DNA from: Gaeumannomyces sp. JS-464
Taxonomy: Eukaryota > Ascomycota > Sordariomycetes > Magnaporthales > Magnaporthaceae
DNA length: 64,000 nucleotides
NCBI GenBank assembly: GCA_002197995.1
Contig: NGZR01000001.1
Coordinates: 13,783,501 to 13,847,500 of the forward strand
Reading direction: 5' to 3'
Numbering within the stretch: position 1 is the stretch's first letter; each line of letters starts with the position of its first letter. The notes below the pieces were generated by a model that searched no databases, was not told the origin of the DNA, and was given only the letters and a program-made list of their open reading frames with translations. Of this stretch, positions 12,640 to 43,529 are shown in pieces. Made by a program: the position numbers and the translations under genes.

Positions 12640-13270
12640 TTTTGGCTGCCACGGTTTCACGTGGCCCGCAATTGCGCCCGGGCCGATAAATGCCTTCGGT
12701 GCGGGGAGAATAAACGACGACCGGTACGTACAACCGTGTACGGCCCTCCCGCAATGCGCGAACTGCTCGGGCTCGTACTTTTGCCAACCACCCGAATTGC
12801 TTTATAAAGCCCGTACGGGTAAACAAAGTGCTAAAACATTTAACTTATAAAAAAAAGGGCCGTTAAAAGGTTAAGCGCACAAGCGTACCGGGCGGCGGCA
12901 AAAGCGGCGGAAGCCGCCGTTGCCACCGCCACCGCGTTGCCGCTGCTACTAACGATACCCTTCCCGCAACCGCTACTAACTACGGGCGGCTCCGCCGTAG
13001 CCGTTATTTACGGCAACCTTACGACCGCTACCGCTATTACTGCGGTTACCGTTATTACTATTAACGATACCGCTAATACAGCCGCTACCGCCGCTGTTAA
13101 CCTTACGGCTAATACCGTTATCGCCGTTATTTAGCCATTTTTATCGCCGCTGCCACCCGCCGCCCCCGCCGTCGCTTCCGTATAGCAAACCCGGCAAGCC
13201 CGCCGGCCCCGGAAGGCGTGGCCCGTACGGCTAGCAGGGAAAGCACTTTGCTAAAAGGCTTAGGGTTAGT
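12640..13270 (+). pseudogene. LINE copy 2 ORF1 (gag-like), broken
   Basis: This matches ORF1 of copy 1. The knuckle core FHVARNCARADKCLRCG is readable near 12655-12710, but the next frame carries TAA/TAG codons. The alanine-rich tail of copy 1 has become Ala/Thr/Val/Ile mixtures (12937-13134) through GCC-to-ACC/GTT type transitions. No product is possible. Confidence 0.7.
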
Positions 13271-13599
13271 TTTAACAATTAATACGAAGTACTGGCGGAT
13301 ATGGAACTGGACCTTCCCGAGCCCGAAAGGGCTATCGAAATAACCGGAAAACCCCGGAGGAAACCGACGGTACCGCCGGCTAACAACTTTAAAGCCAAAG
13401 CCTTAATACACTAACGCCGCTTTTACGTATGCTAGCAGCCAACCGGATATAACAAACGCATGGCAATAAAGCCCGGCGCCCGGGGCTTCGCCCCGAACGC
13501 CGTGCTTTAACCGCCGTTTAAACGAACGTTCAACGTAGCTGGGAAACGGGGGCTATTTTACTTTAACTATTTTGGAGCTAAAATATCGACGTGGTGCTA

Positions 13600-16500: not shown

Positions 16501-17130
16501 TTAAAGCTTCCGCAATTGCACTTTCCATTTGTGCCTCGATAATACTTCGGCGGTTAACGGCTTTTTAAGTACGGCCTTTAATAGTTTATAAAAAGCCTTT
16601 AAAAAGGTCCATTACTTTATGGACAAATACTAAATACACGTTCGTTAATTTCCGGGGCATACGGGAATCCCCGGGAACGAAAAGGCCGATATCGAAGCAA
16701 AGTTAAGCACGGCCTTCCCGATCCCCTAATACGCTAAACCAACGGTGGCGGGAGTAAAAGCTTTGGCCCGGAAAATAGCTTAAGACGCCTGGAACGCATG
16801 GTTTAAAAACACTTTACCGGAACGGTATAAGGCTATAGGCCCCGCCGGTACCCTAACGCACGCCCGATACGTTACAACTGCACCGGAAGGTATTGCAACG
16901 GCTAATAGCCGCACGTACCGGCCACGAGGATTTCGACTGGTACCACCGAAAATTCGAATACGAGGACGATAACCCGTGCCGTTGCGGGCGAAATAAGTCC
17001 CTTTCCTACCCTGTATTTTGCAGGCTGGCTAAAACGGCAAAAAACAAATGGCTTATAACGGACCTTCCCCCGGCTTTCGATAGGCCCGGATATTGGAAAC
17101 GGCTTTTCCAAAAGCCCTTTTTTTTTGCTT
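13600..17130 (+). pseudogene. LINE copy 2 ORF2 (endonuclease / RT / RNase H), broken
   Basis: The fragments parallel copy 1. The endonuclease C-terminus with LDFTFSNALLAIAEIDL and the catalytic NSDHR box is open at 14049-14423. Reverse transcriptase reads FEACLRAGHHPAPFRTAEM near 14870-14935 and YGYADDIGICVTGS near 15440-15480. RNase H reads NGAVGYGWVIYQTG near 16360-16410. The C-terminal zinc motif CRCGRNKSLSYPVFCRLAK lies at 16976-17035. Multiple stops and frame changes separate them. Confidence 0.82.
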
Positions 17131-17586
17131 CGTTCGTTAAAGCCACCAACTATTACATTATCGCCGGACGATAATAACAAAGCCCAAAAAGCCTATACTT
17201 AACCTTTTCCTTTGTACTATTAGGATTAACAATAGGCTCGTTAATCCCTCGCATTTTAAGCCGGGCTCAAGGGAGGTCCCGAAAACCCCTTCCCCCGCCC
17301 AAACCCGGCTTTACCCCTTTTCCGGCATACCCGCCGGCCAATAGCATTACTACCACCCGCAGCGCTTTACAACGCCCCGGCGTATTTTTACGCCCTATTG
17401 TCGATTGCCCGCTTACTAACAAGGAGCGCCGGAATGCGGCCCGACCCCGTATGCCTTCGGGTTTAATTTATTAGCCGCCTTAATAGCAGCATATAGCCTA
17501 GTGTTAAGCTTAGGTAGCGCTAGCACGTTATATGCCCCTTGGAAGGCAAGGACTGGTAAATCCCGATTTACTAACGTTAAATATAC

Positions 17587-17785
17587 TTTCTTTTTCTCTC
17601 TTTCCCCGCGTTGCGTTCGGCGAGCAGTCGATTGGCTATATTTTTAACACTAAAAGGCCGGGAAGGAAATGCTCGCGAATCCAGCTCGAGGATGTATTTA
17701 ACAAGCGCCTTTTCTTTTAATTTTGTTAATTTCCGTAATTTAAGCGTGCAATCGCGTCGAGCAGGCCGGCCGCGCTTTCGTTTAG
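17587..17785 (-). mobile_element. Pogo/Fot1-type transposon fragment D, left part
   Basis: The minus strand encodes part of a pogo-type transposase N-terminal DNA-binding region, matching LLAKRDAG, the NIANRL stretch and AFPPRPFSVKNIA in element B. It is truncated on the left by LINE copy 2 and on the right by the copia element. Its other end survives at 23303-23375, so the copia retrotransposon landed inside this element. Confidence 0.65.
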
Positions 17786-17952
17786 TGTTAAAGGTGGCTT
17801 GGAGTTACGTAGGTGGCAACTGGTGCCCCACAGCTTTAAGCCTATGCACTGGCCCTAGTGCTTTGGCCTGCGCGCGTCTTAGCCCGCGATCGAATAAAAA
17901 AGCCCAAAAACAGTAACAAATCACTTCGGGTGCCTGTTATCGCGCACTTCCA
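17786..17952 (+). repeat. Copia 5' LTR
   Basis: It starts TGTTAAAGGTGG and ends CGCACTTCCA, giving the usual TG...CA ends. It matches the 3' LTR at 23137-23302 throughout. GGTTATAAGCC, a possible primer-binding site, follows directly. Confidence 0.75.
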
Positions 17953-18189
17953 TTAGGTTATAAGCCTTCGCGCCGCCGTTAACGATATTTCTGCCTAATT
18001 AGGAAAGATTAACGATACACGAGTTGTTTCCCGTTGTTTACGTTCTCCCGCCGTGGATTACGAGCGAGGCGCAGCAGTTAAAAAACCGTTAAACGACAAT
18101 TAATAAAGCCGCGTTCGGCGCCGATTAGCAACCATAATAAAGTAATAACAATAACCCTTTTAGCGCTTAAAAGCACCATTTCCCTTGCA

Positions 18190-21100
18190 ATCCAACGCTT
18201 TTGTACGCGTTAAAAGTGCCAACAAAGTTGCCAAAATGGCAATACCGCGAAGTCGCAGTGAAGGTCCCGGACCTGCTAGGGCCTTTTAACTTGGAAATAT
18301 GGAAGCGCACTATCCGGGTGCATTTAACCGCTTCCCGTAACATCTTTTTTATATTTGCTAACCCTCCGGTTAAATCGGCTGGAGCGGAAAACGACGAAAC
18401 TGTATAGTTATAAGCCTTTAGGAGGATATTAATATGGTATTGCATCCGTAACAATATCGAAAAGGTAACCACGAACCTGGAAAAAGCCGGTTAGGACCGC
18501 CCTAAAAACGACGAGGATTAAAACCTAAAGGCTTTTTGGGATAAGGTAGTTAGCACTATTAAAATTACCGCTAACGGCCGTTTCGACGCCTTAATTAACG
18601 AACATTATATAATTTCGGTAGAAAAGTTTAACGGTAACGTTAAAAAGTATACGAACCGTTGGTTATAGGTAAAGCAGGCTTTGGATTAGGCCAATATTAA
18701 CATTCCGGATCGGATGTTTATAAGGAGCCTCGTTAACGGGCTTAGCGCTACCTACCCTTTTACGGTGGCTATAGCTTTAGGGAGTTGTAAAAGCGAGCGC
18801 CGCATTCCCGCTAACTTTATTTCGAAAATGCTCGAAAACACGGCGGTTATAAAGGCCTCGGAGTTAAAGGCTATGGCTAACACTAATAAAAAGCCGGAAG
18901 GACTTTAAAGGCCGAGGGAAAAGCCGAAGTCCTGTAATAAAAAGGGTTGCATTATCGTTTCGCGTGCTCCCCATCACGATAAGTGCGGTAAGCATTACAA
19001 GGGCGATATACAATTGCTGGCTTTTGCACTTTAAAGGCCGAGGGAAAAGCCGAAGTCCTGTAATAAAAAGGGTTGCATTCTATCGTTTCGTGCTCCCACC
19101 ACGATAAGTGCGGTAAGCATTACAAGGGCGGTGATAACAATTGCTGGCTTTTGCACTTTAAATTTGAGGAGGCCTAAAAGGCTAAGTATCCGAAGCGGCG
19201 CTTCCAGCGAGGCAATAAGGCAGCTAACGAGGTTATAGCTAACCCGAGGGTTGCTAACCATACTGGTAATGTGCCAATTAATCGGGGCAATGCCAGCCAA
19301 TACAATATGGCCAATACCGCTTTAAACAATGTTAATAGTGCCCGTAACGCCGTAATAATCGACTCCGGCTCGTTTAAGCACCATTTTAACGATCGCAAGT
19401 GGTTTACCTCGTTAAAAAAGCGCGAGGTCCCCTATAACGCTACCACGGCCAACGGCGGCGCCCAAGTTTCCGTTAAAAAGGGTACCGTCGAAATGCATTA
19501 GCGTAATAAGGCGGGCGTTACTAATTACCTTACGGGCAATCTTTACGCTTAAATCCCCTTTTAACCTTTTTAGCTTTGGCAAAATGCGCAAAGCAGGTTT
19601 AAAAAACGATTAAACCGATTACTTCGTAACGTTTAACGACAAATGGTTGGGCAGCTACCAAATTAATAATAACGTACTAATTGCTAACGTTAACGTGCCC
19701 GCAAGCGCGCCCCGGGCCTTGTGGCCCTAAGTAACGCACTTAACGGAAAAAACCAACCGACGGAAGTTAACGCACCGATTACGACAAAGCGCCCGGTGTT
19801 TACGTGTTAATGCATCGGCGCCTAATGCATGCTAATAAGGAGGCGGTAATAACGGCCTGCCGTGCTGCAGGCATTAAAGTTAGCTATTTTAAGGTATTAA
19901 AGCATACTTGTTACGGCTGTTTAAAAAGCAAAGCGACCCAAATCATCGGCAATCGTCACTTCCACCGCACTACCCGCTTTTTGGGCCGTATTTATATGGA
20001 TATATTAACCATTTCGCCTACTTTATACGGCGGATATAATTACGCCGTTTATGTTATTAACGAGGTAACTACTTTTAACTGGGTAATTTTTGCAGTTAGC
20101 AAAGCTAGCACGGAAATCTTTACGAAGGTTTGTAATTGGATTAATTATATTAAATTCCAGTTAGGCATTAAAATATAAGCAATCCATACGGACGGTGGCA
20201 CGGAGTTTAACCCGGAAAAGTTAAGGGCCTATTGCATTGCTCGAAGCAAAGCTTGCGAAATTAGCCCGACGCGATGCCCGGAAATAAACAGCATCGTTAA
20301 ACGTGCCAACCGTATTATACTTAACGCGGCTCGCACCGGGATTAATGCTAACGGTTTGCATAAAAAGTATTGGGTATATGCTTTGCAAATAACGAGGAGG
20401 GTGCTAAATTACATTCCAAATATAGCTTTTAATAGCAAGGAAAGCCCGCACGAGGCGTGGGCAAAGGCAATCGGCCTTAACGAGGAGTATTACCAACCAC
20501 TAATCCGTACCTTCCGCATTTAGGGCGCGGTCGCTTAAGTGCTAATTAAAAACGGCAAATAAACTAAAGCTGATAAAATGGCCCCCAAAGTAACGAGGGG
20601 CCGGCTTATGGGCTGGGAAAGCTTTTATAACGAAATCCTACTAGTTAAACCGGACGGTACTAATAAGGTTTTCCGTTACCGTAACGCACGGATTAACGAA
20701 GGTGCTAGTAAACGCCGGAAATCGCCCTATAACTTTGTTAAAAAGGCGATTACCACTAATGCGGTTAACGAAGCCGTTATTAAAAACCTTTACTTTACAA
20801 TAGGCATTTGGGTTTATAATATTAGCCCAATTACTAATTCCACCGACAGTAACGATGGTAACACCGGTGCAACTGGCGATATTGCCGGCCCCGGAAGTGA
20901 TAACGATTTATCGCCTGCGGAAAAAACCGGGGAAACCGAAGCGAAAAACGAAAAGCCTGCCGTTGCAAAGCCTAAAAAGCCCAAAAAGCCCGCCGGCCCG
21001 GGTATGCCAATACCCGAAAAAACTCCCGAGCTCGGCAACGAGGCGGTTACGGTGCCCGCAACGCCTAAAAAAAAGACCTGCAAAAAGCGGCCGCCGCCCC

Positions 21101-23302: not shown

Positions 23303-23375
23303 TTAAAATGGGAAACGCGAATCGCGATGGAAACGCGTTATTCGCTAGTGTGCGTTACTCGCTAGTAAACTACGT
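23303..23375 (-). mobile_element. Pogo/Fot1-type transposon fragment D, terminal inverted repeat end
   Basis: The reverse complement begins ACGTAGTTTACTAGCGAGTA and carries two copies of the AGCGARTAACGC motif. It matches the left end of element B at 25687 through CGCGATTCGCGTTTCC. It ends at a TA dinucleotide (23376-23377), the target expected for this superfamily. It is the other end of the element whose left part lies at 17587-17785. Confidence 0.7.
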
Positions 23376-23457
23376 TAGCGGTAGTTAAAAGCTTAACAAT
23401 TTTAAAAAACGTTTTAATAAACCTTTTATAAAAGTTAGTAAAACTAATAAACGATTA

Positions 23458-25307
23458 ACGTAATCCACCAGTGTGTGCTACATATTAATGTGTGCCACAC
23501 TTACACCTAACCTTTAATTAATCGACGCGTATGCCAACCCAATAACGCTAGGAATCCATTTAAACTATTCGGAATTGTATATATCGGACGTTTTTTTCCT
23601 TTTGGCAAATGCGCGCATTGTGTCCAGTTTTGCCGCACGTGTTACATCGCCGACAAGTTATTATCGCCCTCCTTTTTTAACCCCCATAATTGCGCATTTT
23701 TTGCTATAACTGCTTATTTAGTTTTGCTGGTTTAAATATTTCGTATTTTTTTAACAATATGTAACCCTTTTATCGGACACGTGTTTTTTTAGCCTTCCGG
23801 CGTTTGCTTAATGCTTCGTTCGCTTTGCGTAACGAAGCAATTTCGGCTTTAAAAAGGGCTATTTAATGCATTATCGAACTCGTCCTTTTCGTAAACTAGT
23901 TATAACCGCTAGCATAAGTAACGGAAAGCTATTTCGGTAATTGGAAATCCGAGTTTTAATATGTTTGGATTGCGAAATTGCGTTTTTGGCTGTTTAAAGC
24001 GTTTTAAAAGTCCAAAGTTCGGCGGTTATTTAAAGGCTTTTTCGGGGGAATTAAAATTCGTAACCTTACATCCAGCTTTTCCAAAACCAAATCCGGATTA
24101 AAAAAGCAAAACCTTTTTGGAAACCTTTTTGGATATTTTTTTCGGTTATAAAGTTAAAAAATGCCGCTTTAAACGCCGAAAAGAATTCGATTTTAATTAC
24201 GTAATTAACGTGTAATTTTATTAAGCTTTCGATTTGTCGACCGTACGCTTTTTTTTAACGGGCCGAAGCATTTAACGTTAAGCGGTTAAAAAAGTAAAAC
24301 GAATGCGGAGGTATGCAAAGCGTAATAATGTTATATTTTTAGCAATAAAGTTCGAAATCCGTCGAATAGTGGCTTTCGTATCCGTTTAGCATTAACAAAC
24401 GATGGCTAACTTTTATACGTAACGTAATATGCTTATAAAAATGCTAAATCCATTTAGGCCGAGCTTATTCGTAATTTACCTGTTAGCATTCGTTAAAATA
24501 ACCTAATCGCGTAAAAGGCCGGTTTTCAAATACTAATTAGCTAAATGGTATTACCTTTTAACGATAATAAAAAAAGGATCGCTTAACCGTAATAATTAAC
24601 CTTTTAAATAACTATAGCCCATTCCCGGTTGCTAAGCTAAACCAGCTTTGTTTTATTACGGCCTTTCGATGTATTAATAACCATAACGGCGGCGATTATG
24701 CTTATAAAAAAGCCGGTTTCGTCGAAATTATAAATGTCGTTATTTAAAATGCTATATTTAGCTATAATATTCCGCATAAGGTTAAATTAAGCAAAAACGA
24801 GTTTGGGATTTTCGCATTTGGCCTTTTGGTAGTCGTATTTTCGAATCCAGCGCGTACCGAGCTTTGCGCGGCGTTTAACGAACCTCGCGACCTAATTGGT
24901 CCCGACGGTGCCCGCGTCGCGTTTAGCGAGCAGTTGGTTAGCTATATTTTTAATACTAAAAGGCCGGGGAGGGAATGCGCAAAAATCCAGCTTAAATATG
25001 TATTTAATAAGCGCTTCCTTTTCGGATTTTGTTAATTTCCGTGTTTTGGGCATGTAATCGCGTCGAGCAGTTTGGCCGCGCTTTCGCCGAGCGAGGGTGG
25101 AAAAGTTTATTTTGTAAATTTTAGCGGCGCTTCGGATACTTAACTGTGGATTTAATGCGATCGCCCGAAAGGTTAAAACAATTTTGCGTTCGTCGCTTTT
25201 ATTTGCCATTGTTTGTTATAGTGCTATTCGTGGATAAAGTTGGATTAACGCGTAAGCGCGTTAATTGTGGCACATATTAATGTGTGGCACACACTGGTGG
25301 ATTACGT
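23458..25307 (-). mobile_element. Pogo/Fot1-type DNA transposon A (1,850 bp)
   Basis: Terminal inverted repeats start ACGTAATCCACCAGTGTGTG on both ends and are flanked by TA (23456-23457 and 25308-25309). Inside, the minus strand encodes a decayed transposase. Length and structure match Fot1-class elements (about 1.9 kb). Subterminal duplicated GTGCCACA-type motifs lie in each end. Confidence 0.82.
23580..25209 (-). pseudogene. Transposase of pogo element A, broken
   Basis: The start codon at 25209 opens MANKSDERKIVLTFRAIALN, followed by a helix-turn-helix region (RSAAKIYKINFSTLARR) and a CENP-B-like second helix-turn-helix (EALIKYIFKLDF, AFPPRPFSIKNIANQLLAKR), to a stop near 24892. The DDE catalytic core downstream is riddled with stops. 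A C-terminal zinc knuckle (CRRCNTCGKTGHNARIC) is readable near 23610-23655. A live protein would bind the element ends and cut and paste at TA. Confidence 0.75.
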
Positions 25308-25309
25308 TA

Positions 25310-25686
25310 GCAATTTTACATTATTTAAGTTTTTTTTTTAATTTAACACCGTTTAAACTTTATTTTTAAATATAAACGATATTTTAAAAACTAATAACGT
25401 GTTTTTAAAAACTCGACTTTTTATGTAAAAGGACGTGCTAAAGTACCGCTTTATTATATAAACCAAAAAATCCAACAGTTTAAACACTATTATATATTAA
25501 GCCCCGAAGCTTTTATAAGTAACGCTTTAAACGACCCCGTTACACTATCCCTTTTTTAAAAAGGCCGCGTTTTCGAAAGCTTAATAGTAAAAACCGCGGT
25601 ACGCTTTTTTTTTAAAAGGTTTAGCTCCGGTTATTACTTTTACTTCGGTATAACGCACTTATTAAATTATTACGCTGTTTTACTTA
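25310..25686. other. AT-rich spacer between pogo elements A and B
   Basis: No gene is seen. About 130 bp at 25420-25550 match 27850-27990 in the same orientation (core GTACCGCTTTATTA), so the spacer is itself a fragment of another repeat into which the pogo elements jumped. Confidence 0.5.
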
Positions 25687-27544
25687 ACGTAATTTACTAG
25701 CGAGTAACGCATATTAGGGAATAACGCGTTTTTTATCGCGATTCGCGTTTCCTATTTCCAATTTTAATTTTTTAACAACCACAAATAGCATCGACATCCA
25801 ACGAGGCCAAAATTGTTTTTACTATACAAGCAATTTAATTTAATGCATAATTAAATGTGCGTTTAACAGCTAAAATTTACGACGTTTTTAAAGCCACGTT
25901 ACGTCGCTAACGCGCTAGCCGACCTGCTCGACGCGACAGCATGCTTAAAAATCGAAAATTAACGGAATTCGAAAAAAAAGCGTTTGTTAAATACATATTC
26001 GAGCTGGATTTTCGCGCATTTCCTCCCCGGCCTTTTAGTGTTAAAAATATAGCCAACCGATTGCTCGCCAAACGCGACGCGGGCATTATCGGGATTAACT
26101 GGGTCGCGAAGTTCGTTAAACGCCGCCCGGAGCTCGGTACGCGTTGGATTCGAAAGTACAATTACCAAAAGGCTAAATGCGAAAATCCCAAGCTCGTTTT
26201 TGCGTAATTCGACCTTATGCGGAACATTATAGCCAAATATGGCATCCTAGATAACGATATTATTTTCGACGAAACCGGCTTCCTTATAAGCATAATCGTT
26301 ACCGTTATAATTATTATAATATCGAAAGGCCGTGGTAAAATAAAGCTAATTTAGTTTAGCAATTAAAAATGGGCTATAATTATTTAAAAAGTTAACTATT
26401 GCGGCTGGGCAATCCCCTTTTTTATTATCGTTAAAAGGCAATACCACCTGGCTAATTAGTATTCGAAAACCGGCCTTTTACGCGATTGGGTTATTTTAAT
26501 AAGTTTTAACGGGTAAATTACAAATAAGCTCGGTTTGGAATGGATTTAGCATTTCGATAAACATATAATATCGCGTATAAAAAGCCCTTATCATTTGTTA
26601 ATGCTAAACGGATACGAAAGCTATTACTCGACGGATTTCGAACTTTATTACCAAAAATATAACATTATTACGTTTTGCATACCTTCGCATTCGTTTTACT
26701 TTTTTTAACCGTTTAACGTTAAATGCTTTAGCCCGCTAAAAAAAACGTACGGTTAACAAATCGAAGGTTTAATAAAGTTACACGTTAACCACGTAATTAA
26801 AATCGAGTTCTTTTCGGCGTTTAAAGCGGCATTTTTTAACTTTTTAAGCGAAAAAAATATTTAAAAAGGTTTCCGAAAAGCTAGCTTTGCTTTTTTTAAT
26901 TCGGATTCGGTTTTGGAAAAGCTGGATGTAAAATTACAAACTTTAACTCCCCGGAAAAAGCTTTTAAACGACGCCGAACTTTGGACTTTTAAAACGCCCC
27001 GGATAGTTAAAAACGCAATTTCGCAATCCGAACATATTAAAACTCGAATTTCCAATTACCGAAGCAATTTTCCGTTACTTATGCTAACGGTTGTAAACTA
27101 ATTAACGAAAGGGGTTAAAGCAATTATGCATCGGGTTAACCTTTTGGAAAAAAAGAACTCCAAATTTCGAAAAGCGAACGAAGCATTAAACAAACGCCGG
27201 AGGGCTAAAAAAACACGTGTTTAATAAAAAGGGTTACATATTGTTAAAAAAATACGAAATGTTTTAAACCAGCAGGAGCTGGATGGGCAGCTATAGTAAA
27301 AAATACGCGATTATAAGGGTTAAAAAAAAAGGGCGACGACAATTCGTCGGCGATATAGCACGTGCGGTAAAACCGGATACAATACGCGCACTTGTTAGGA
27401 AGAAATAGAAATGTCCGATATATATAGTTCCGAATAGTTTAAATGGATTTATAGCGTTATTAGGTTGGCATGCGCGTCGATTAACGGGAGGTTGGGTGTG
27501 GGTGCGTTACTCGCTGGTGTGCGTTACTCGCTGGTGAACTACGT
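25687..27544 (+). mobile_element. Pogo/Fot1-type DNA transposon B (1,858 bp)
   Basis: Ends read ACGTAATTTACTAGCGAGTA (left) and, reverse complemented, ACGTAGTTCACCAGCGAGTA (right), both flanked by TA (25685-25686 and 27545-27546). The right end contains the motif CACCAGCGAGTAACGCA twice in tandem. The plus strand encodes the transposase. It is close in size to element A but has a different subterminal motif. Confidence 0.82.
25786..27420 (+). pseudogene. Transposase of pogo element B, broken
   Basis: The N-terminal DNA-binding part is open at 25941-26207 (KAFVKYIFELDFRAFPPRPF, LLAKRDAG). The DDE core is legible through stops: NDIIFDETGF near 26255 (first Asp intact), LNGYESYY near 26603, where the family's DGH-type Asp has become Asn, and SPLKKTYG near 26735. 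FFNFLSEKN and KGFRKASFAFF follow near 26830-26900. The tail carries a knuckle, CRRYSTCGKTGYNTRTC, near 27345-27395. The Asp-to-Asn change and the stops fit RIP. Confidence 0.75.
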
Positions 27545-27546
27545 TA

Positions 27547-28241
27547 GCGCTTTGTTAAAAATATAATAACATACGTCGTATTAAAACCCTTAATTCCTAT
27601 AATTTGTTAAACATTTTTTTTAACGCCACGCCCCGTAAAGCCGTGCGCTTCGAGGTGGATGCACTTTTTTAGCATGTTAAAGCTTAAAGTTTAAAATAAA
27701 GCACGCCGATTTACGTGCAAGTACGTGCTATGTAAAATTGTAAACGTTACGAAAGCCTTACCCCGTTACCCTTTTTTTGGAATTACGCTTTTACAAAGGC
27801 AAGCGATAACAGCCAGGTTCGAACTAGTGCACTTACGAAGTGCTTAAATAATGTAAAAGGGACGTGTTAAAGTACCGCTTTATTACATAAATTAAAAGAT
27901 TTAACAGTTTAAGCATTTCGCGTTTAAACTTTTTAACACTACTATATATTAAGCCCTAAAGCCTTTATAGCTAACGCTTTAAGCGACTTTGTTACATTTT
28001 GGGTTTTTTATACACATTTACAAAAGGCGGTTATTAGGTTATATTTAATAATTTTTTTTAAAACTTTTTTAGTTAAATCGTTATGTTTTTCCTCGGTTTT
28101 AACGTAAATAAAACGGTTGTTAAAATAAATTAAAAAACCCGCATTAATTAAGTTTATAAAAATGTGGTTTATTAAGCTTTAAAAAGTAGTTACAGCATTA
28201 ATAAAACTTATTAACATAACGGTATATTTAAAAAGTTCGCA
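27547..28241. other. AT-rich spacer between pogo elements B and C
   Basis: No gene is seen. Part (27850-27990) is shared with 25420-25550. An isolated B-box-like GGTTCGAAC occurs at 27816-27824 without a tRNA fold. Confidence 0.45.
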
Positions 28242-28369
28242 ACGTTATTTATTAGCAAGTGCTATATATTAGCGAATGCTACACCCACACGCGACCTCCG
28301 GTTAATCGACGCGTATGCTAACTTAATAACGCTAAAAATTTATTTAAACTATTTAAAACTATATATTAT

Positions 28370-30037
28370 TACAATTAGGGGTTTGCTTTTAAAGTAAAGC
28401 ACTTCGGTAGCGGAAAGGACAGTATAGCTGGTATTAGTAAACAGGGGAACACGTAACTTAAAAGGACAATTTAATTGCTTGCTTTAAGGGATACTTGGGA
28501 GCTAACTTAGGTTAACTAATGCCGAAGCCTTAGTTAATAACTACTTAGGTTTGTAGGAAATCCATCCTTTATATACACGTTATTTTACTTTAGTAGTTTT
28601 TTAAATTTATAGCTTTGTTTCGAGTTTTTACAAATCCACAAATCTTTTTTTGGATTTGTTGCTTTGTTCCGAGTTTTTACAAATTTACAAATCCTTTTTT
28701 GGATTTGTTACTTTGTTTTTAGTTTTTACAAATTTATAAATCCTTTTTTGGATTTGCTTTAAGTAGTTTACCTAGTTACGTAACTTTCGTTTCCGCCGTA
28801 AGCGGGGTAAAAATACCATTTAAAGTCCTTTTTTGCCTTATGTCCTAAGGCTTGCATGCTGGTCGTAATATTAGGTTTCCCTTTTTAGGCTAAATCTTTT
28901 TAGCTATAATTTATTGCCCCGCTTTTTGTTAATTGGTAAGTATTTTCCTTTTTTACTATTTCCTTTCCCTTTTTAATTAACGAAACGTTCGGCCGGGTGC
29001 AAAAACGTCTTTTGCGAAGAAAACCCTTTAACGTAAAAACCTATTTGCTTAAGTTTTTTTTTTCTTATTAAAATGCTTTTTTGCTTTTTTGCTACGAAGT
29101 TTTAAAACGCGAAAAGTGTAAAGCCTCCTTTTAGGACTTATCGCGGTGCGTGGAGTACTTTAGTCGAAACCGCTCGGGTTGTAACATTTTAAGCCTTTTT
29201 CCCGCGCAATTCCGAAAAATTGGAAAATAATACGCAAAATTAAAAGCCGAGCTAAAAGCAAAAGAGGAAAAGCGCCGTGCCGTAAAACGGGAGCTTTTTA
29301 CTGCTAATGCCCGCATTAAACGTTTAAAAACGCAAAAAAAACGTGGTTTAAAAAGAAAATGCGCGCGTTTCGGCGCGGTATTAATGCTATGGAGGAGTTG
29401 GAGCGTGTCGAGCGGGAGGAGGCCAACCGGGAGGCTCGCTAAATTGCTTCGCAACCCGAGCCATCCGTAGCTCTTGCCGTTTTTCCCGACTAGCAAGCGT
29501 TCGGGGTTAATTTTAACCTGGATTTGCTTGCCTTTTTTAACTATAGTAAGTTACGATGTTTTCTAATAACTTTTTTGGGTTTTATAACGCACTAAGTGTG
29601 GTTTTGGTTTTCCTGCCGAGGTTTTATGTTCGAATTTTGGCATAACTATTGTTAAAAACCCAATTGTCGAGTTTCCAACGATTGGTTTTTTAGCTACTTT
29701 TGCTTTTGCTAACTTTTTTGTAAATGCTTTTACCGGTATTTCGTTAAGGCCTTTTAGCAGTTTATAAGGTTGGTTGCTTTTTCCCACATGTTTTTTTCGT
29801 GGCCGTACTTTTTCCATTTAATTAGGTATTTTTTAGGCCTATTTTTTAACTTATAGTTTAAAATTTCTTCGATTTCGTACTTTTATTTTAAATTAACTTT
29901 TATTAACTTATTATTTTTAAAGCCCGGTAACGCTAATTTAAATAAAGAAATATAAAAAACCGGGTAGGATTTTATAGTTAGCGGTAGTTGGAATTTGTAA
30001 TTTACGTTCGAAACTTTTTTTAATATTTTAAAAAGTT
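28370..30037. other. Inserted AT-rich sequence inside element C, origin unclear
   Basis: It separates the left end of element C from the foldback element. On the plus strand near 29225-29520 a coiled-coil-like basic stretch is readable (AELKAKEEKRRAVKRELFTA, then GINAMEELERVEREEANREA), followed by acidic/aromatic residues. It resembles C-terminal regions of fungal transposon-associated proteins, but I cannot name the family. The minus-strand open frame at 29563-29817 is lysine-rich and unrecognised. Confidence 0.4.
28612..28758. repeat. Three 49-bp tandem repeats with internal inverted ACAAATCC / GGATTTGT
   Basis: Units start at 28612, 28661 and 28710, each reading roughly RCTTTGTTYYGAGTTTTTAC. 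Each contains ACAAATCC-like and GGATTTGT arms that can pair. The decreasing match is explained by C-to-T changes. Confidence 0.8.
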
Positions 30038-30040
30038 CTA

Positions 30041-30469
30041 ACATAGTTTACCACCTTGTCGCGCACCCTTACCTTATCGCGCATTCCAAATCCCATACTA
30101 AACGCGGTTTTTTTTAACTGAATAATTCGGCCAATTTAAGCCCAAATTTAATTAAATTTAAACAGGTTACATTTAACTACGTAGCCGATTTTATAATGAA
30201 TTAGTAATATTTTTATTATTACTTTTTAGGGTTAGTTTGCATATTTGCACAATGTATTGCACGGTGTTTCAAACTAACCCTAAAGGAGTAATAGCAAAAA
30301 TGTTACTAATTTATTATAAAATCGGCTACGTAGTTAAATGTAACCTGTTTAAATTTGATTAAATTTGGGCTTAAATTGGCCGAATTATTCAGTTAAAAAA
30401 AACCGCGTTTAGTATGGGATTTGGAATGCGCGACAAGGTGAGGGTGCGCGACAAGGTGGTGAACTACGT
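30041..30469. mobile_element. Foldback (MITE-like) element 1, 429 bp
   Basis: Two arms of about 180 bp are inverted copies around a roughly 65-bp centre containing CTAACCCTAAA / TTAGGGTTAG. Ends read ACATAGTTTACCACCTTGTC (left) and, reverse complemented, ACGTAGTTCACCACCTTGTC (right). Each arm carries two CACCTTGTCGCGCA-type motifs. TA flanks both sides (30039-30040, 30470-30471). There is no coding capacity; it was probably moved by a pogo-type transposase in trans. Confidence 0.8.
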
Positions 30470-30479
30470 TATATCGAAC

Positions 30480-32553
30480 ATTTTTACTTTTTTTTTAATA
30501 AATACGCGTATTATGTCCGGTTTTACCACAAATGCTACATCGCCGACAACTCGCCGTCGCTTTCCTTTTTAAACCTTTTTAATCGCGCATTTTTGCTATA
30601 ATTATTTATTTAGCTTTTACTGGTTTAAAACATTTCGTACTTCGTTTATAATAAATAACCCTTTTAATTAAACACGTGTTTTTTTAGCCTTTCGGCGTTT
30701 ACTTAGTGCTTCGTTCGCCTTTTTAAACGTAAACACTTCGGTTTAAAAAAGGGCTACTTTATTTATAATCGTTTTCGCCCCTTTTGCGATTTAATTTATA
30801 ACTATATAAATGGAAGTCGGAAAACTACTTTAGTAATTAGAAATCCGAGTTTTAATATGTTCGAATTACGAAATTGCTTTTTTAACTATCCTAAACATTT
30901 TAAAGTTTAAAGTTCGGGGTTGTTTAAAAGCGTTTTTAAAAAAGTTAAAATTCGTAACCTTATATTTAGCTTTTTTAAAACCGAATTTAAATTTAAAAAC
31001 GCAAAATTAGCTTTTTAAAAACCTTTTAAATATTTTTTTAATTATAAAATTAAAAAATGCCGTTTTAAACGCTAAAAAAAACTCGACTTTAATTACGTAA
31101 TTAACTTGTAACTTTATTAATTTTCGATTTATTAACTGTACGCCTGCTTTATTAAACTGAAATACTTAACGTTAAACGGTTAAAAAAAGTAAAACGAATG
31201 CGAAAGTATGCAAAACGTAATAATGTTATATTTTTAGCAATAAAACTTAAAATCCGTTAAATAGTAACTTTCGTAACCGTTTAATATTAATAAACGATAA
31301 AATCCTGTAAAACGAGCTATAATACGTTTATCGAAATGCTAAATCTATTTTAAACCGAGCTCGTTCGTAGTCCACCCGTTAACGCTCGTTATAATAACCC
31401 AATTACGTGGAAAGTTGGTTTTTAAATACTAATTAGCTAAATAATACTGCCTTTTAACGATAATAAAAGGAAAACCCGTTTAACCGTAACAATTAACCTT
31501 TTAAATAATTATAACTTATTCCTAATTATTAAACTAAACTATTTTTGCTTACCACGGTTTTTTAATGTTATAATAACTAACGTGGTTTACAAGCGAGTGG
31601 AACACCCAAGCGAGTGGAACACTTTAAAATTCCATACTAAACGCCGTTTTCGACACCCTTGGTAAATCGACCAATTTAGCGTAAAATTCCGTGAAAATTT
31701 AAATAATAATATTTAATTATATTACGGATTTTATATTAAATTAGTGCGATTTTTAACGGCGCTAACCCTAACGTAGTAATTAGTTAAGTTTTCTCCATAC
31801 TAAATTTAATATAGGGAAATTTTAATCGTTTGCCCCACTATAAATAGCGCTAGTAAAAATCGCACTAATTTATTATAAAATCCGTAATATAATTAAATAT
31901 TATTAAATTTTCACGGAATTTTACGCTAAATTGGTCGATTTACTAAAAGTGTTAAAAACGACGTTTAATATGGAATTTTAAAGTGTTCCACTCGTTTAAA
32001 TGTTCCACTCGCTTGTAAACCACGTTATAACGGTAGCGATTATGCTTATAAAAAAACCGGTTTCGTTAAAATTATAAAATATCGTTATTTTAAACGCCAT
32101 ATTTGGCTATAATATTCCGTATAAAATCGAACCACGCAAAAACGAGCTTGGGATCGTTGCATTTGGCTTTTTAATAGTTGTATTTTCGAATTTAACGCGT
32201 GCCGAGCTTTGCGCGGCGTTTAACAAACTTTTCGACTCAGCATTTGCTAACGGTGCCCGCGTCGCGTTCGGTAAATAATTGGTTAGTTATAGCTTTAATA
32301 CTAAAAGGGCAGGGAGGAAATGCGTGAAAATCCAGCTCGAGTATGTATTTAACAAGCGCTTTTTTTCGAATTCCGTTAATTTCCGGAAGTTGAACTTACA
32401 ATCGCGTCGAGCAAATTGGCCGCACTTTCGCTAAGCGAGGGTGGAAAAGTCGATTTCGTAAATTTTAGCAACGCCCCGGATATTTAATTGTAAATTCGAT
32501 GCGATCGTTTAAAAAGCCAAAACAATTTTACGTTCGTCGCTTTTGTTTGCCAT
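30480..32553 (-). pseudogene. Transposase of pogo element C, broken and interrupted
   Basis: The minus-strand start at 32553 encodes the MANKSDERKIVL-type N-terminus seen in element A. Foldback element 2 (31580-32025) splits the DDE core, and stops are frequent throughout. The C-terminal knuckle region is legible near 30520-30560. Confidence 0.65.
31580..32025. mobile_element. Foldback (MITE-like) element 2, 446 bp
   Basis: Long inverted arms of about 190 bp surround an unpaired centre. Ends read ACGTGGTTTACAAGCGAGTG on both sides, each with two tandem AAGCGAGTGGAACA motifs. TA flanks both ends (31578-31579, 32026-32027). It is inserted in the transposase of element C and has no coding capacity. 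Confidence 0.82.
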
Positions 32554-32640
32554 TATTTGTTGTGGAAATATTTGTAAATGATGTTAAATTAACGCGTGGA
32601 CGCGTTAATTGTAGCATTCGCTAATGTGTGGCATTTGGCA

Positions 32641-33711: not shown

Positions 33712-36086
33712 GACGGGCTGCAGGCGGCAGGGGACTCAGTCAGGGAGGGGTTTTTCGTAGGGGCGCGGTTCTGCGCTCGCTGGCCGATGATAAGCCAGCC
33801 GGGAAGGATACTGTGCGCACCACTTGCGAGGGGGCAAGCCTGCTTATCAACAGTTTCGCCAAAGGAGAGACAGGATAAGGCCGGAAGACGCGCCGCCCGG
33901 GTCTACGACCCCAACGACGGGGGGTCGCCAAGGGGTAGCATCATGGTCCTAGCCACGGACGGACATGCATGCGGGGTTCGACGTCGACTGACGCATGCTG
34001 TCCTTGGCCACGGAGAAAAAAGGCTGACAGAGCTGGTAGCATGAGTTGGAGGGAAAGAGGTGGTCCAGGAGTGCCCGTTTCGCACGAGTCGATAGGTTGC
34101 TGACCGAGACGGCCAGAAATCGCGGCTTGCTACGTCGTCGGCTAAGAATAAAAAGATCCATCGTTCCAAGAGGAGGGGGACTACGCCAAAGTGGCAGCGA
34201 GATAGGATATGCACTAACATTAGACTTGGGATTTGGAGAAACCCAAGCATGCACGCCAAGCTCTCGTTTCTTGCTGATCGCTGCTACGCCGTCGTCTCGC
34301 CGCTGTCACATTCCCTATCGGACCTGCAAGCACCGCCCGAAAAAAAAAGAGCCAAGCTCACCAAGAAACGCTAGCCAGGCACGCCAGGGTCCATGGGCAG
34401 ATTCAAGGCTTGCCGGCTGCCGAATCCAGTTACGCTCCCCACGGCCCTCGAGACTGGCATGCACGCGCCGCCGTCTATTTTAACAGCAGCTCCAATTGAT
34501 AGCTGGAGGACAGTATTCATAGCAGAATGTGACGGTATGCCAACAAAACCGTCTACGTAGATACGATAAATAGAGGAGAGGGGTTGATCTGTCGAATGAG
34601 CGCCTGGCCAACTCGATGTCACGACGCAGGTCGACCGAGCCTGGGTGCGTGTGACCTCCCTCCACGCAAACATAACCGAGCCCGGTCACGGCAGCCTGCA
34701 TGACACTGCCTGTTCGTTTGTACGATAAAACGGAAAGTCGTAAGGGAAGCAAGGCCCTGTGGCTCGCCGGAACCCATTCCGGATTTAATTTAGATGCAGG
34801 AATTCACCGAGTTATTCTTTGCGTTTCGCTGCGAGCAGCAGTCTTCCGCGCCATTCGTTCACAAAACCTCTTTCAAAACCCAAGGACTAAAAAAGACCAT
34901 GAAAAGACTTCAAGCCGCTAATTCTAGCAGCTGTCATTTAATCTATCTACCTTATATATTTTTCCGCTTGTCAGGCACGGCCACCTCCTTCAATGCCGAA
35001 CATGATGCAGACGTCCAGGCCGTGATCCTGGACACGTAGGCGTCACCGTCAATGGAAAATCGCCCCTGTTTTCAGAGGTCAAGTTTTCAAAGCAACCGTG
35101 GCCTGGGTTGCAAATAGATGATGGCTGTAGTGGCTTACGGCTTGTGTCGCTTGTCCTCCCATCCTGCTGATGTGTTGTGCAATCTTTCTTTATGTATAGA
35201 TGCGCTTACAGAACCCTTTCAATGTTCCTGGCCTCCTCGATCTACACCCATTATTCGGCCTTCGGGGCCAACATGGCTATGTATTTGGTTTTCTTTGTGA
35301 TCTATAGATGCCATTACTGCTGGATCCATCGTCCCTAAGTCCGGCTGGAAGTTGGCGCGGGACGGCCAGTCCAAGAGCAAATTTGCACAAGAAATGCTCA
35401 ATCATCCAGTGTTCCAAGAGGGATATCCGGGCCATGGGCGTCCCCTCTCCGCTGTCTGTCAATTAAGTACAGTGTAAGTTGACAAATGAGAAATATTGCT
35501 AGCCTACCTTCCTATAGCTAGTGCTGCCAACTCCAACCACGGCTCATTCAGGGGATGGTCGCTTTATCTATAAGCGCCGAGGAGTACGTCTGCCAACAAG
35601 GTCCTCTTTTATAAGTCGTCAAGAATATTAATGTACACAGAAGAAATCTTGAAAGAGCCAGTGGCAGACCATTGCCTCGTAACCAAGATCAGCAGAGAGG
35701 GAGAGAGAAAGAGAGAGAGAAGGCGGTACAACTTTTGCAAACCAATGAGAGTCCAACGAGAGAAGAGGTGCAGGGCTCCATCCAGCAAAAAGAAAGAACA
35801 TGATCAAACATGAAAAACCGTGCAGAGATTAAGTGGTCCACATGACGGCACGGGCGCAGCTTTGCTGGAGGGTGGTCGTGGCTATGTTGGATGAGATCGT
35901 GAGATCGCTGGCCTGCTGGAGTTTGCATTCTGCTGGAGGGGGCCGTAGTCCGTAGTGCCTCAGGCTGGAAGCAGTACTCGGCGGTGACCGGACACGAGAG
36001 GGGGGGGCAGATTTTTCAAGACCCCGGTGCTTGTGCATGTAGAAGAGGCCAGGAGGCTTCGTGATTTCGCCACGCCATCACGTCCG
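33712..36086. other. Intergenic, no recognised gene
   Basis: This contains the upstream region of the propeptide gene and about 2 kb of mixed sequence. A short coding-like stretch on the plus strand near 35300-35470 (ITAGSIVPKSGWKLARDGQS and onward) has no recognised family. A GA-rich simple repeat lies at about 35697-35722. Confidence 0.4.
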
Positions 36087-37714
36087 TCACGACCCAGCTT
36101 GGTCCCAGAGCGCGCTGCCATTCCTCAGCCCGGTCCGTATATGCAGCCACCCCAGCTGCGCAACATCCCGACCCTGCCCGTCCACGAGGTGGCCCCGGAC
36201 CCCGTGTCCCCGCACCAGCCGCCACATCCTCACGATTTCTGCGCGCGCTGCGTTGGCGGCGGCAGACCCGTGGCCGCCACCGATGGCACCTGCAGAAATG
36301 ACGGCAGCCTGCGCCGCCGGCCCCACCATGAGGTGCAGCGCAGTGCTCCCCTCCGCGTCGGGGCCGCCAGCAGCTCCTGCACCAGCTTCTTGCCGCCCCC
36401 GTTGGAGGCGGCGTCGATGATGCGGCGCGCGACGGGGGCGTTGAATGCAGCCACTGCGACGTGCAGCGGCGACCTGCCGCCGTGGAGGCTGTCGTCGCCA
36501 AGCAGGAGGGCGGGCTGGAGGACGGGTTTGCTCCGCGCGCCGGCCAGGACGGCTTCCAGAGCACGGATGTAGTGGCGGGTGAAATTATAAGATGATGTAG
36601 CTGCGACGGTGGCGGCGTGGACAGGCGTGGCGCCGGTCCTATCGATGAGGTTCAGGGCGACCAGGATAGTATCGACGAGGAACCTCGTCGTGGTCTTCAT
36701 GCGACGGGCGATTTCCTTTTCGTTGCCGCCATTGAATGCGGGGATGCTGCCAGTCCTGGTGGGTGCGACGTCCCCGCCGTCGATGGGACCGGAGAAGACG
36801 GCGTGAAGTGCCGTGCGGCCGTGGCTGTCTAGAACCAGAGGATTCAGGCCGCCGCCGGGTTTCCAGAGGGCGGCCACGGCCCTCCAGTTACCGCGGGCCG
36901 CGGCGATGTGCAGCGCCGGGGTGCCGTCCCAGTCCAGTCCAGTGATGAGAGTGGGGTCGTATTCGCAAAGCAGCGAGAGGAGCCGCAGGTTGCCGTTACC
37001 GGGAGTTCGGAGTGCTTCGAGGGAACGTTGCGCGAGTAGCGTACCGAGTCCCGTTTCTGCCAAAGAATATGGACGATGGCGGCCGGCACTTCGCGTTTGA
37101 TTCGGGCGATGAGCCACCGGACCATGTCTGGAGAAGCGAATGGATGAAAATTGTAAGCAAGACCGCGCACGTCAGCTATGGTGTGTGAAGAGATTTCTGC
37201 TGCTGCTTACGTAGTGTGTGGCTTTGGGTCCTGCTATGGCGGCGAACAGTATGTTGGGGAAACGTGCGATTGATCGACCGTAGCCCTGGGGATGGGGGAG
37301 GCTACCGTAGCCCTGTGGTGGAGGAGGGCCTCGGTAGCCCTGGGAGGAGAAGTCGCTGCATAGCCCTGTGTAGGAGTAGGGTCCCAGTAGCCCTCGGGAG
37401 GATGAGGGCTTCCGTAGCCCCGGCAAGGGGGAGGGGCACCGTAGCCCTGAGGACGAGGAGGGTCCCGTAGCCCTGGGGAGGGCGAGTGCTTTGGTGGCCC
37501 TGGGGAGGAGGAGGAGGAGGAGTCGGAAGAGGAGGGCTTCCGTAGCCCTGCGGCGGCGGGCCTTTCTGGCAATATGTGGCAGAGAGAAGTGCCTGCGAGA
37601 CAGAGACGCCCAGGTCCCAGGCAATGGTCCTGGCCCTTCCGTGCAGGTCATGCTTGAAGTCCTTCTGGGCGTCGCGGTGGAAGTCCCGCACGTTCTCTTC
37701 CCCGAGTGAGATAG
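36087..37714 (-). pseudogene. Ankyrin-repeat protein gene with PQGYG-repeat N-terminus, frame-broken
   Basis: From MSISLGEENVRDFHRDAQKD at 37714 the frame runs through ARTIAWDLGVSVSQALLSAT into proline-rich PPPQGYG repeats (about 37240-37560). The GYG reading passes through all three frames within the repeats. A likely intron (donor GTAAGC near 37210, branch GCTGACG, acceptor CTCCAG near 37128) leads to MVRWLIARIKREVPAAIVHI. After another frame change come ankyrin units: DWDGTPALHIAAARGNWRAV, DSHGRTALHAVF, GGRSPLHVAVAAFNAPVARR, then, after a one-base deletion near 36359, GSTALHLMVG. The stop is at 36087. Ankyrin repeats bind partner proteins; no catalytic domain is present. Whether the breaks are biological or sequencing errors is unresolved. 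Confidence 0.6.
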
Positions 37715-37721
37715 ACATCTT

Positions 37722-37748
37722 TGTGGTGGTGGTGGTGGTGGTGGTGGC
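37722..37748. repeat. GTG trinucleotide microsatellite
   Basis: About nine GTG/GGT units lie just upstream of the ankyrin gene's start codon (on its strand, CCA/CAC repeats in the leader). Confidence 0.85.
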
Positions 37749-38530
37749 GGCGGCCAAGGATCTGGAGAGCCAAAGATGGACACGACGGACAAGCAGAATT
37801 CGCTGATCCTTGGCTGGAAGTTTCTTGTCCTGCAGAGTCACGCCTTCCTCATCGGACAGAAGCACAGAGTGGCAGGATGGACAAAGGGTGGAAGCTTGTG
37901 GGCGGGCTTTGGATCAAATCAAACCAGATGCTGGCACCCCAGCGAGCGACGAGTTACTGCCCTCGTCCCACCTCTCGACTGTGAATGAGTTAGGAAAGCT
38001 CCCTATGTGGGTACTGGACGTATGTGTGGATTTTATATGAAGCAAACACGACGTGAACCCTGAATGCCTCATCTTCACGAGGCGGCTGCAACAGGGCGTC
38101 GCCCAAAATCCCCGCCCAAAACACGCAACAACTCGAGCGTTGCATGTTTGTCTTGACTGCCGTCAGTCTTCGGTGACAATGAGGCCTAGCTCGTATATGT
38201 GCAGTAACGCCTTTATCACCAGCCTACGTATCTAATTACCTACCGTTCAAATATCAAGATCTTTGCCTAGATTTCGGCTGCGAGCACGCAAAATTTGTGA
38301 TCATCACGGACCGGGGAGGGAATGTAAGTAGTTTTGAAACTGCAAGTGACAGTCAAAGCATTGAGATTCCATAGTGGTGGCTAGGGATACAATGAGGGTT
38401 AAGACAAGCTGCGACGTATATGGAGACGTCTCTGAGATACAGTGGTGACACAAGGCACGGTTTCCCAACACCCATCACCGACATATCCACCTCCACCTCA
38501 GCCTCGAGTGCCCCTATTGTGTGTCCTGTC
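37749..38530. other. Intergenic, nothing recognised
   Basis: No domain, RNA or repeat structure was found. It lies between the ankyrin gene's 5' end and the tail of a minus-strand coding-like segment. Confidence 0.4.
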
Positions 38531-38930
38531 TACCAGATCTAAAGTCTGACGGCGAGCACGCTGACATCATCTCTGTCCTTGGCCACGACGAGGCTGTGGT
38601 CGTTGGTGTCTGTGGCCGAGCCGAGATAGGACATGTAGTTGCTCTTCGGATCAGCATCGACAACGTAGACCCATCGACAAAGGCCGAAAGCTTCTTCGCC
38701 GGCGCAATGGGAGGCGCCGCCCGCAGCGGCTGTTGCTGTTGCTGCTGCTTCTCGCCACTCAAGCTATGCTTGGTGTTGGGGCGCCCGGCTACCTCCTCGT
38801 TGACCGCCTCGATCAGCGACTGCGTGTGGAACCACTCGTACTTGGGCTGGTGGGATGCCGGCCCTGTCCCTGGGAACCGGAGATGGGGTGGGCCGGCATC
38901 CCACGACATCGTGTCGGAGAAGCTCACAGT
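38531..38930 (-). CDS. Unrecognised coding segment, frame-broken
   Basis: Two well-formed protein-like pieces lie on the minus strand. The first reads MSWDAGPPHLRFPGTGPASH and continues HTQSLIEAVNEEVAG, followed by a short CAG (Gln) run near 38735. The second, in another frame from about 38695, reads RWVYVVDADPKSNYMSYLGS and TNDHSLVVAKDRDD to a stop near 38545. A frame change or small intron joins them. I recognise no family. It could be a relic or a small real gene. Confidence 0.35.
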
Positions 38931-39153
38931 GTCTGCAAAATACAAAAAGAATACAGAAATACACTGCAAAACAAAGAGATATAAGTGACGATAATAAACG
39001 GAGATAAGAAAAAATAAAGAAGGCAAATAAAAAATAAAAAAAGGCAAGAAAAAAATAGAAAAAAGAGAAAGGCTTCAAGCCACGTAAAGTGGCCCACTCC
39101 TTTCCGCGCGTTGCGACGGCCCACCGCCAGAGACAGGTGAGTCTCACCGACAC

Positions 39154-39243
39154 AGATGGTACACCAAGGATGAGCAGACCAACATCAACGCCAACGTGTC
39201 GGCCATGGTGCAGATAGGCAGCGTCGGCGGCGCGCTACTAGAT
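39154..39243 (+). pseudogene. MFS sugar-transporter fragment
   Basis: Thirty codons read WYTKDEQTNINANVSAMVQI, then GSVGGALL. This resembles the second membrane segment region of fungal MFS monosaccharide transporters (typically N.N..SMVQIG.VGGAL). Nothing further of the usual 12-helix, roughly 500-residue protein is found on either side, so this is an isolated fragment. Confidence 0.45.

Positions 39244-43483: not shown

Positions 43484-43529
<46 letters not shown>

Follow-up and report, generated by a model that had tools for sequence, protein, structure and literature searches.

Two-part terminal units and the DNA-binding modules of the transposase in Fot-type pogo elements of Gaeumannomyces sp. 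JS-464

The elements of the window

A cluster of transposons occupies positions 23303-32640 of a 64,000-nucleotide stretch (the window) of the Gaeumannomyces sp. JS-464 genome (assembly GCA_002197995.1, contig NGZR01000001.1, positions 13,783,501 to 13,847,500 of the forward strand). The cluster consists of Fot-type pogo DNA transposons with their miniature inverted-repeat transposable elements (MITEs), and the subject here is the relation between their ends and the DNA-binding part of their transposase. Two pogo-type elements are complete (A and D), one is a fragment (B), one has degraded ends (C), and two foldback MITEs are nested in C. The original prediction was that five TA-flanked element types share a common ACGTA end, followed by a type-specific inner motif present twice in tandem. 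The termini of A, D and both foldbacks are as it described them, but B is a mere fragment and the ends of C are degraded.

Types are named below by the outer and inner blocks of the repeated unit. Element A (23456-25309, minus strand) is a complete pogo/Fot-like element of type CAGT.GCCACA. It is 1854 bp long, has both ends, is degraded by repeat-induced point mutation (RIP) and carries its transposase on the minus strand. Its left (3') end (23469-23499, plus strand) has tandem units at 23469-23482 and 23486-23499, and its right (5') end (25266-25296, minus strand) has them at 25283-25296 and 25266-25279. Element D (25685-27546, plus strand) is likewise complete, pogo/Fot-like and RIP-degraded, with 1862 bp, both ends, the type CAGC.AACGCA and a transposase on the plus strand. 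The units of its left (5') end (25698-25728, plus strand) lie at 25698-25711 and 25715-25728, those of its right (3') end (27503-27533, minus strand) at 27520-27533 and 27503-27516. Fragment B (23303-23377, minus strand) is a short piece of a D-type 5' end, consisting of a ACGTAGTTTAC end and two CAGCGAGTAACGCA-type units, and no partner end was found for it. Its own end is at C1:13806865 on the minus strand.

Element C (28240 to about 32640, minus strand) is of type CAGC.GCCACA and is split by the two foldback MITEs, with HTH1 and HTH2, the two helix-turn-helix (HTH) modules of the transposase, still readable, as they are in A. Its left (3') end (28253-28283, plus strand) has tandem units at 28253-28266 and 28270-28283 and the terminus CA-ACGTTATTTAT. 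Its right (5') end (32610-32636, minus strand) retains the inner unit at 32610-32623 and a degraded outer unit reaching to about 32636; this terminus fits the units but has no ACGT-TA. Foldback MITE 1 (30039-30471, no strand assigned) is of type CACCTT.CGCGCA with a unit period of 18 bp and arms of 185 nt that are 95% complementary. Foldback MITE 2 (31578-32027, also without strand) is of type AAGC.GGAACA with a period of 17 bp and arms of 125 nt that are 91% complementary. Foldback MITEs of different end types have related internal sequence in common, as seen in these two and at the loci L043, L056 and L090.

The assignment to the Fot type rests on several features. Matches to PF03184 (DDE_1) lie inside these elements, e.g., at C1:3288164-3288658 in L056 (E 1e-18), in a scoring that covered 150 of 588 candidates. 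On one stretch of L084, HTH_psq and HTH_Tnp_Tc5 both exceed the Pfam cut-off (22.1 versus 20.4 and 24.8 versus 22.2 bits). The ends conform to the Fot-like design, with terminal inverted repeats of about 40-60 bp that contain direct repeats of 15-17 bp. As far as the available text of the sources goes, Fot and Fot-like pogo elements such as DAHLIAE 1 and 2, Trem, Aft1, Tan1, Fot1 and Pot2 have the same size of about 1.85-1.9 kb, and DAHLIAE 1 and 2 have the same ACGT ends. The target duplication is TA. When the inserted element is removed from L056, a single TA is left and the MITE around it becomes continuous, as in L043 (where CA stands in place of TA). Three such joins were examined, of which L056 is clear, foldback 2 fits except for two bases and foldback 1 is without a comparison. 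Most Fot elements have TAA instead, according to the available part of one survey, and TA is found in the FotC and FotD clades (PMC7386202), as here.

The transposase copies are broken by RIP. A RIP-like TpA/ApT ratio of 1.48 is also found in the left flank (window positions 10000-20000), against 0.64 in the right flank (34000-44000). Because of the left-flank value, the RIP-affected region must reach beyond the five elements.

A duplicated, two-part unit at the ends

The terminus pattern is widespread. Its ACGTAR form (TAACGTARTYYAC) is matched 238 times (113 + 68 + 57) in the host genome of 53 Mb, and the reversed-pattern control 5 times. The ACGTGG form (TAACGTGGTYYAY) has 857 matches and its control 6. 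The ACGT of the predicted common end is indeed constant, but ACGTGG is the commoner form and ACGTA the rarer, the two differing by a RIP-type transition. Given 857 versus 238 matches, the terminus is therefore better written ACGTRRTYYAY.

RIP bears on every comparison of these elements. Within types, the 39 complete elements described below differ by 14295 transitions and 712 transversions, which indicates heavy RIP. Since RIP yields transitions only, the key comparisons were made in a purine/pyrimidine (RY) code.

The duplication of the inner motif is borne out genome-wide. The statistics cover 119 of the 238 ACGTAR ends (99 + 20), with 106 listed and 13 unlisted ends outside this set; the 857 ACGTGG ends were not sampled as such. 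When lags of 13-24 bp are tried, the best repeat lag is 17 bp in 110 of the 119 ends, 18 in four, 13 in three, and 19 and 22 in one each. With full letters, 86 ends exceed the 99th percentile of shuffled sequences at their best lag. In the RY code 98 ends match at 15 of 15 positions, where the 99.9th percentile of the shuffles is 14, and at a lag of exactly 17 bp, 94 ends are still identical at 15 of 15, i.e., when RIP-type transitions are ignored. The duplication is not universal. Two or more ends, including the 5' end of the L065 element and the 3' end of the L077 element (C1:13650158), carry one unit only, so that unduplicated motifs do exist. L045 and L055 have truncated ends, and the unit period is 18 bp at four MITE-type ends.

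The repeated unit is 14 bp long and consists of two half-sites, an outer one (positions 1-6) and an inner one (positions 9-13). This bipartite nature was absent from the original prediction and is new here. Instead of five element types, the 119 ends contain 16 unit strings that are distinct by transversions, 12 of them found at two or more ends. The outer blocks are CACC, CAGC, AAGC/AAGT, CACCTT, CAGT and CCTT. The inner blocks are GGCGCA, CGCGCA, AACGCA, GACACA, GGGCCA, CGGTCA, GGATCA, GGGACA, GCACCA and GCCACA. Outer and inner blocks occur in many combinations, usually joined by GAGT or a relative of it.

How consistent is the unit within one element? From 51 raw end pairs, 39 complete elements were used, the excluded pairs being four MITEs, four nested or mispaired spans (three at L056 and one in the window), the L055 and L057 spans of more than 2 kb, and L065 and L069, which have unlike ends and were examined separately. 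The 39 fall into 15 types; the grouping was assigned by the analyst and the block names are RIP-aware readings. All four units, two per end, are RY-identical in 34 elements. D is among the remaining five and departs by one transversion. The outermost units of the two ends are within one RY difference in 39 of 39 elements (41 considered, with L065 and L069 set aside). These elements are no fair sample of duplication frequency, because a duplicated unit was among the acceptance criteria for ends outside the strict pattern.

Unlike outer halves in the two units of an end are found in the CCTT type and in the outer MITE of L056. In the CCTT-type ends (L040, L041, L042, L048, L055, L057, L070, L097, L098 and L099) the outer halves differ and the inner half is the same. 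It is possible that these ends are an intermediate of end remodelling. The MITE of L043 and the outer MITE of L056, compared by eye, have much inner sequence and the inner block in common and differ in the outer block. Elsewhere near the ends, the 5' subterminal stretch of complete elements often has a short CGCG-rich palindrome (e.g., TTAACGCG-CTTA-CGCGTTAA), and the 3' subterminal stretch is a ACCCGACCTCCGGTTAATCGA-like sequence common to many types.

Half-sites and transposase modules

Element D serves as the coordinate reference for comparisons of the transposase region. Its HTH1 (psq) module (25785-25935, plus strand) is predicted to recognise the inner half-site (unit positions 9-13), as suggested by the Pfam HTH_psq match on the homologous stretch of L084 and by the association described below. 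Its HTH2 (Tc5) module (25965-26144, plus strand) is predicted to read the outer half-site; here the HTH_Tnp_Tc5 match on the homologous L084 stretch, the helices of a model and again the association point the same way. The modelled HTH2 recognition helix lies at about 26094-26123 (plus strand). A third variable segment (27075-27175, plus strand) looks like a leucine zipper by eye and has three alleles, which match neither half-site. They cut across the other groupings, and type AAGC.GGATCA holds two of them. The L084 DNA-binding stretch, searched by sequence against solved structures, gives no match up to E 1. The modelled domain has a weak fold match to the CENP-B DNA-binding domain (1HLV; Foldseek rank 2, VIA rank 2; model pTM, the predicted template modelling score, 0.48). 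CENP-B places two tandem HTHs on one site, the CENP-B box, as the present transposase would.

The two half-sites are associated with different modules. Among the 15 types (39 elements), those that share an inner block have an HTH1 distance of 0.035 (5 pairs) versus 0.204 for the others (p = 0.0002, the floor of 5000 permutations). Those that share an outer block have an HTH2-helix distance of 0.014 (21 pairs) versus 0.053 (p = 0.0008). Type CACT.GGATTA entered this test under CACC for its outer and GGATCA for its inner block. Across the 15 types the cross-association is absent, in that a shared inner block does not bring a closer HTH2 nor a shared outer block a closer HTH1, and the catalytic body and the zipper track neither half-site. 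Mantel tests agree. The outer half correlates with the HTH2 helix (r = 0.38, p = 0.005) and also with the preceding stretch, into which the start of the Tc5 domain falls (r = 0.50, p = 0.0003). The inner half correlates with HTH1 (r = 0.29, p = 0.013) and with the 5' noncoding stretch beside HTH1 (r = 0.28, p = 0.014). The crossed pairings give r = -0.14 and -0.02.

At unit position 1 the association can be followed to single residues. This position correlates with HTH2 at r = 0.94. All 11 elements with A at position 1 have N as residue 109 of HTH2, and all 28 with C (or T, through RIP) have K or R there. The same split is seen at residue 104, K with A versus T with C/T (I being a RIP product), and both residues lie inside the modelled recognition helix (104-113). 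There are exceptions among further elements: K104 is combined with a pyrimidine at position 1 in window element C and N109 with C in L048, and in L065 A is accompanied by E104. A further rule, by which K versus R at residue 109 would go with G versus C at unit position 3, is not claimed; AGG to AAG is a RIP change.

Do these relations hold for ends outside the set? Starting from 42 candidate ends, 17 rows and then 16 held-out 5' ends were obtained, the outer MITE of L056 being dropped with its HTH1 from a nested insert. The nearest HTH1 names the inner block correctly in 14 of the 16, and the two misses mix up AACGCA and GGCGCA, which the RY code cannot separate. L041 and L059 have no usable HTH2; for the ends with a well-matched HTH2, A versus non-A at position 1 is correct in 14 of 14. 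The test is a modest one because most of the 16 ends fall in types of the training set. Window element C is of a combination (CAGC.GCCACA) that is absent from the 39 elements, and its HTH1 is of the GCCACA kind.

The idea of a constant terminal stretch and a diversified inner motif that behaves as a putative binding site thus gains a statistical link to the DNA-binding domain. The further proposal, a motif with its own specificity for each family, holds as far as the tie to the DNA-binding domain goes. It fails in that the motif tracks two exchangeable modules and not the transposase clade.

Exchange of modules and a proposed origin of new families

Divergence between the types is very uneven. 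In an end-to-end alignment it amounts overall to about 2-7% transversions. The catalytic body has a mean between-type transversion distance of 0.017, with single windows up to 7%. HTH1 and the 5' noncoding stretch form a peak, with a mean HTH1 distance of 0.194. Further peaks are found at both element ends, in the HTH2 recognition helix (3-6%) and in the C-terminal zipper-like segment (9-16%). The elements are mosaics, in which HTH1 is an old cassette exchanged between near-identical bodies. Near-identical bodies carry different motifs, which is at odds with one motif for each transposase clade. The reading favoured here, put at a probability of roughly 0.78 from comparison of the sequences, is that DNA-reading modules are swapped combinatorially and that the end half-sites would be replaced in concert with them.

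Ends can be exchanged as well. The L069 element follows type CAGT.GCCACA in the part before position 1200 (40 of 44 informative sites) and again in 1403-1486 (16 of 17). At 1816-1849 it agrees instead with type AAGC.GGATCA at 12 of 12 sites. Three sites in between are divided, two matching AAGC.GGATCA and one CAGT.GCCACA, and the change-over falls between about 1678 and 1816. By its sequence L069 is plainly an end-swap recombinant, whose swapped last stretch is about 62 bp long (1801-1862). L065 is a second element with unlike ends. These ends, the outer blocks of the MITEs and the cross-cutting zipper alleles together indicate that the ends, HTH1, HTH2 and the zipper each have a history of their own.

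Perhaps no cassettes were exchanged at all. Instead, rapid positive selection might have acted on point mutations in the recognition helices, allowing elements to escape cross-mobilisation by relatives and MITEs. The variable residues do lie inside the modelled recognition helices, and the HTH2 differences are few and within reach of point mutation, so that HTH2 alleles may have arisen in this way. HTH1 is a different matter. Of its 47 columns for each codon position, 21 vary by transversion at first, 12 at second and 24 at third positions, and third positions that vary as much as first ones speak for old cassettes that were exchanged and against recent fast point mutation. In the body (26133-27060), 8 of 309 third-position columns are variable. 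In addition, the adjoining 5' noncoding stretch is as diverged as HTH1 itself. As an account of the whole pattern, point mutation under selection is unlikely.

A simpler idea is ordinary divergence, with each type a separate old family whose ends and transposase were inherited together. Same-type copies are indeed close in every region (0-4% transversions per window, less than 1.5% in most), and separate fungal families with different direct repeats have been described in the available literature. However, bodies are on average 1.7% apart in transversions between types whose HTH1 modules are 19% apart, silent sites included. Moreover, HTH1, HTH2 and zipper group the types differently, the half-sites are independent of body distance, and L069 is an end-swap recombinant. 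The body/HTH1 contrast, the discordant groupings and L069 led to the rejection of ordinary divergence, which is an improbable explanation, more so than selection on point mutations.

What if the inner motif tracks HTH1 merely by hitch-hiking, since both belong to a 5' block of about 265 bp that changes hands as a whole? The diverged segment does cover 5' end, promoter and HTH1, divergence drops sharply near position 270, and the 5' noncoding stretch also tracks the inner half. However, the outer half shares this 5' end and yet follows HTH2, not HTH1, and the 3' end, some 1.8 kb away, has the same unit (outermost units within one RY difference in 39 of 41 elements). Hitch-hiking was rejected on these two grounds and is very improbable. 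Least credible of all, and likewise rejected, is that the motif types are products of host RIP: RIP is heavy, and GGCGCA/AACGCA/GACACA and GGGCCA/GGATCA differ by transitions only, but the main tests used an RY code that is immune to RIP and the association persisted on transversions alone, transversions separate A from C at position 1 and the variants of codons 104 and 109, and HTH1 is equally variable in predicted full-length transposases elsewhere.

How might module exchange work? The terminal ACGTRRTYYAY, common to all ends, probably has a role in cleavage and synapsis, and its ACGT end is most likely the cleavage site. The 14-bp unit, twice per end at a 17-bp period, is the predicted transposase-binding site. 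Each tandem array would bind two transposase subunits, with HTH2 on the outer and HTH1 on the inner half. Recombination between elements would exchange HTH1 and HTH2 and so create new specificities. The resulting enzyme would not fully fit the ends of either parent, and only copies whose four units reach the matching half-site combination would keep moving. Such selection could be helped by unequal exchange or gene conversion between units and ends, which can spread a half-site change.

It has long been a problem to explain how transposon families come to recognise new, mutually exclusive ends, given that a transposase and its four binding sites must change together. The host genome seems to hold many outcomes side by side, including the end-swapped recombinant and MITEs with remodelled ends, which would make the question directly testable. 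With somewhat less confidence than for the host elements themselves, but still leaning in favour, it can be proposed that new families of fungal pogo elements arise when two DNA-reading modules, and perhaps a third, zipper-like one for dimerisation, are exchanged in varying combinations. Each module would be bound to a half-site of its own at all four terminal positions, and exchange would time and again give an almost unchanged catalytic engine a new address. If true, this would be a general and ongoing mechanism of family formation across fungi and would provide a natural recognition code for psq and Tc5 HTHs. The paired half-sites and helices could serve as a starting data set for such a code. 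Domesticated host proteins, too, repeatedly contain psq and Tc5 (CENP-B-type) domains.

Type I restriction systems offer a parallel. Their HsdS subunit has two exchangeable target-recognition domains, each reading one half of a bipartite site. By analogy, the present elements may work alike in generating combinatorial specificities, although the proteins are unrelated and a transposon must also change four sites in itself. Drosophila pogo is said, in the title of a 1999 paper by Wang, Hartswood and Finnegan, to have a 12-bp sequence in its terminal repeats that is recognised by the transposase. It would likewise have a short HTH-recognised sequence inside its terminal repeats, and we know of no family of combinatorial variants for it.

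The pattern of module divergence extends to relatives elsewhere, which were compared at the protein level. The read-through transposase of L056 has 1163 relatives at E ≤0.001 (7990 candidates scored). Those with organism names among the 120 listed are fungal, and 117 of the 120 passed a length filter for comparison in pairs. In the 20 pairs with body identity of at least 95%, mean HTH1 identity is 0.61, and it is below 0.60 in 13. One pair has 0.99 in the body and 1.00 in HTH2, but 0.55 in HTH1. Pairs at 0.70-0.85 body identity have 0.50-0.56 in HTH1 versus 0.67-0.77 in HTH2. Since the database was clustered at 90%, pairs of high body and low HTH1 identity are enriched in the top bins, and the lower bins should suffer less. 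Two scans of viral contigs confirmed no relatives.

Parts of the terminal scheme, predicted to be undescribed in fungal pogo elements, are in fact in print. The accessible portions of three papers report ACGT ends and direct repeats of 15-17 bp, called transposase-binding sites, for Verticillium DAHLIAE 1 and 2 (PMC3441728), ACGT ends for Sclerotinia elements (PMC4188875), and two 17-bp direct repeats in Paracoccidioides Trem, Aft1 and Tan1, with the remark that differences in the DNA-binding domain may be connected to the terminal inverted repeats (PMC2836289). In the accessible portions of the Fot-family literature there is no description of two half-sites, of a match between half and HTH, or of HTH cassette exchange between near-identical bodies. 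A wider search, for which most subscription journals were out of reach, found neither half-site combinatorics nor HTH cassette exchange, including in what was available of PMC7386202 and PMC7325037. Nor did literature on CENP-B half-site contacts and transposase module exchange, again with most subscription papers out of reach, contain the present scheme. What is new here is the half-site combinatorics, the module-wise tracking and the HTH cassette exchange; ACGT ends and direct repeats were known.

Finally, the host genome contains another, Fot1-like lineage, with AGTC-type ends at 22 of 29 other DDE_1 loci. By eye, a type-specific unit such as CCTGTTGGCCACC or CCTGTCCGGCCACC comes after these ends, in one copy or several. 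Copies of this TA-AGTC pogo lineage (L009-L037) are less degraded, and L012 has an open frame of 543 aa.

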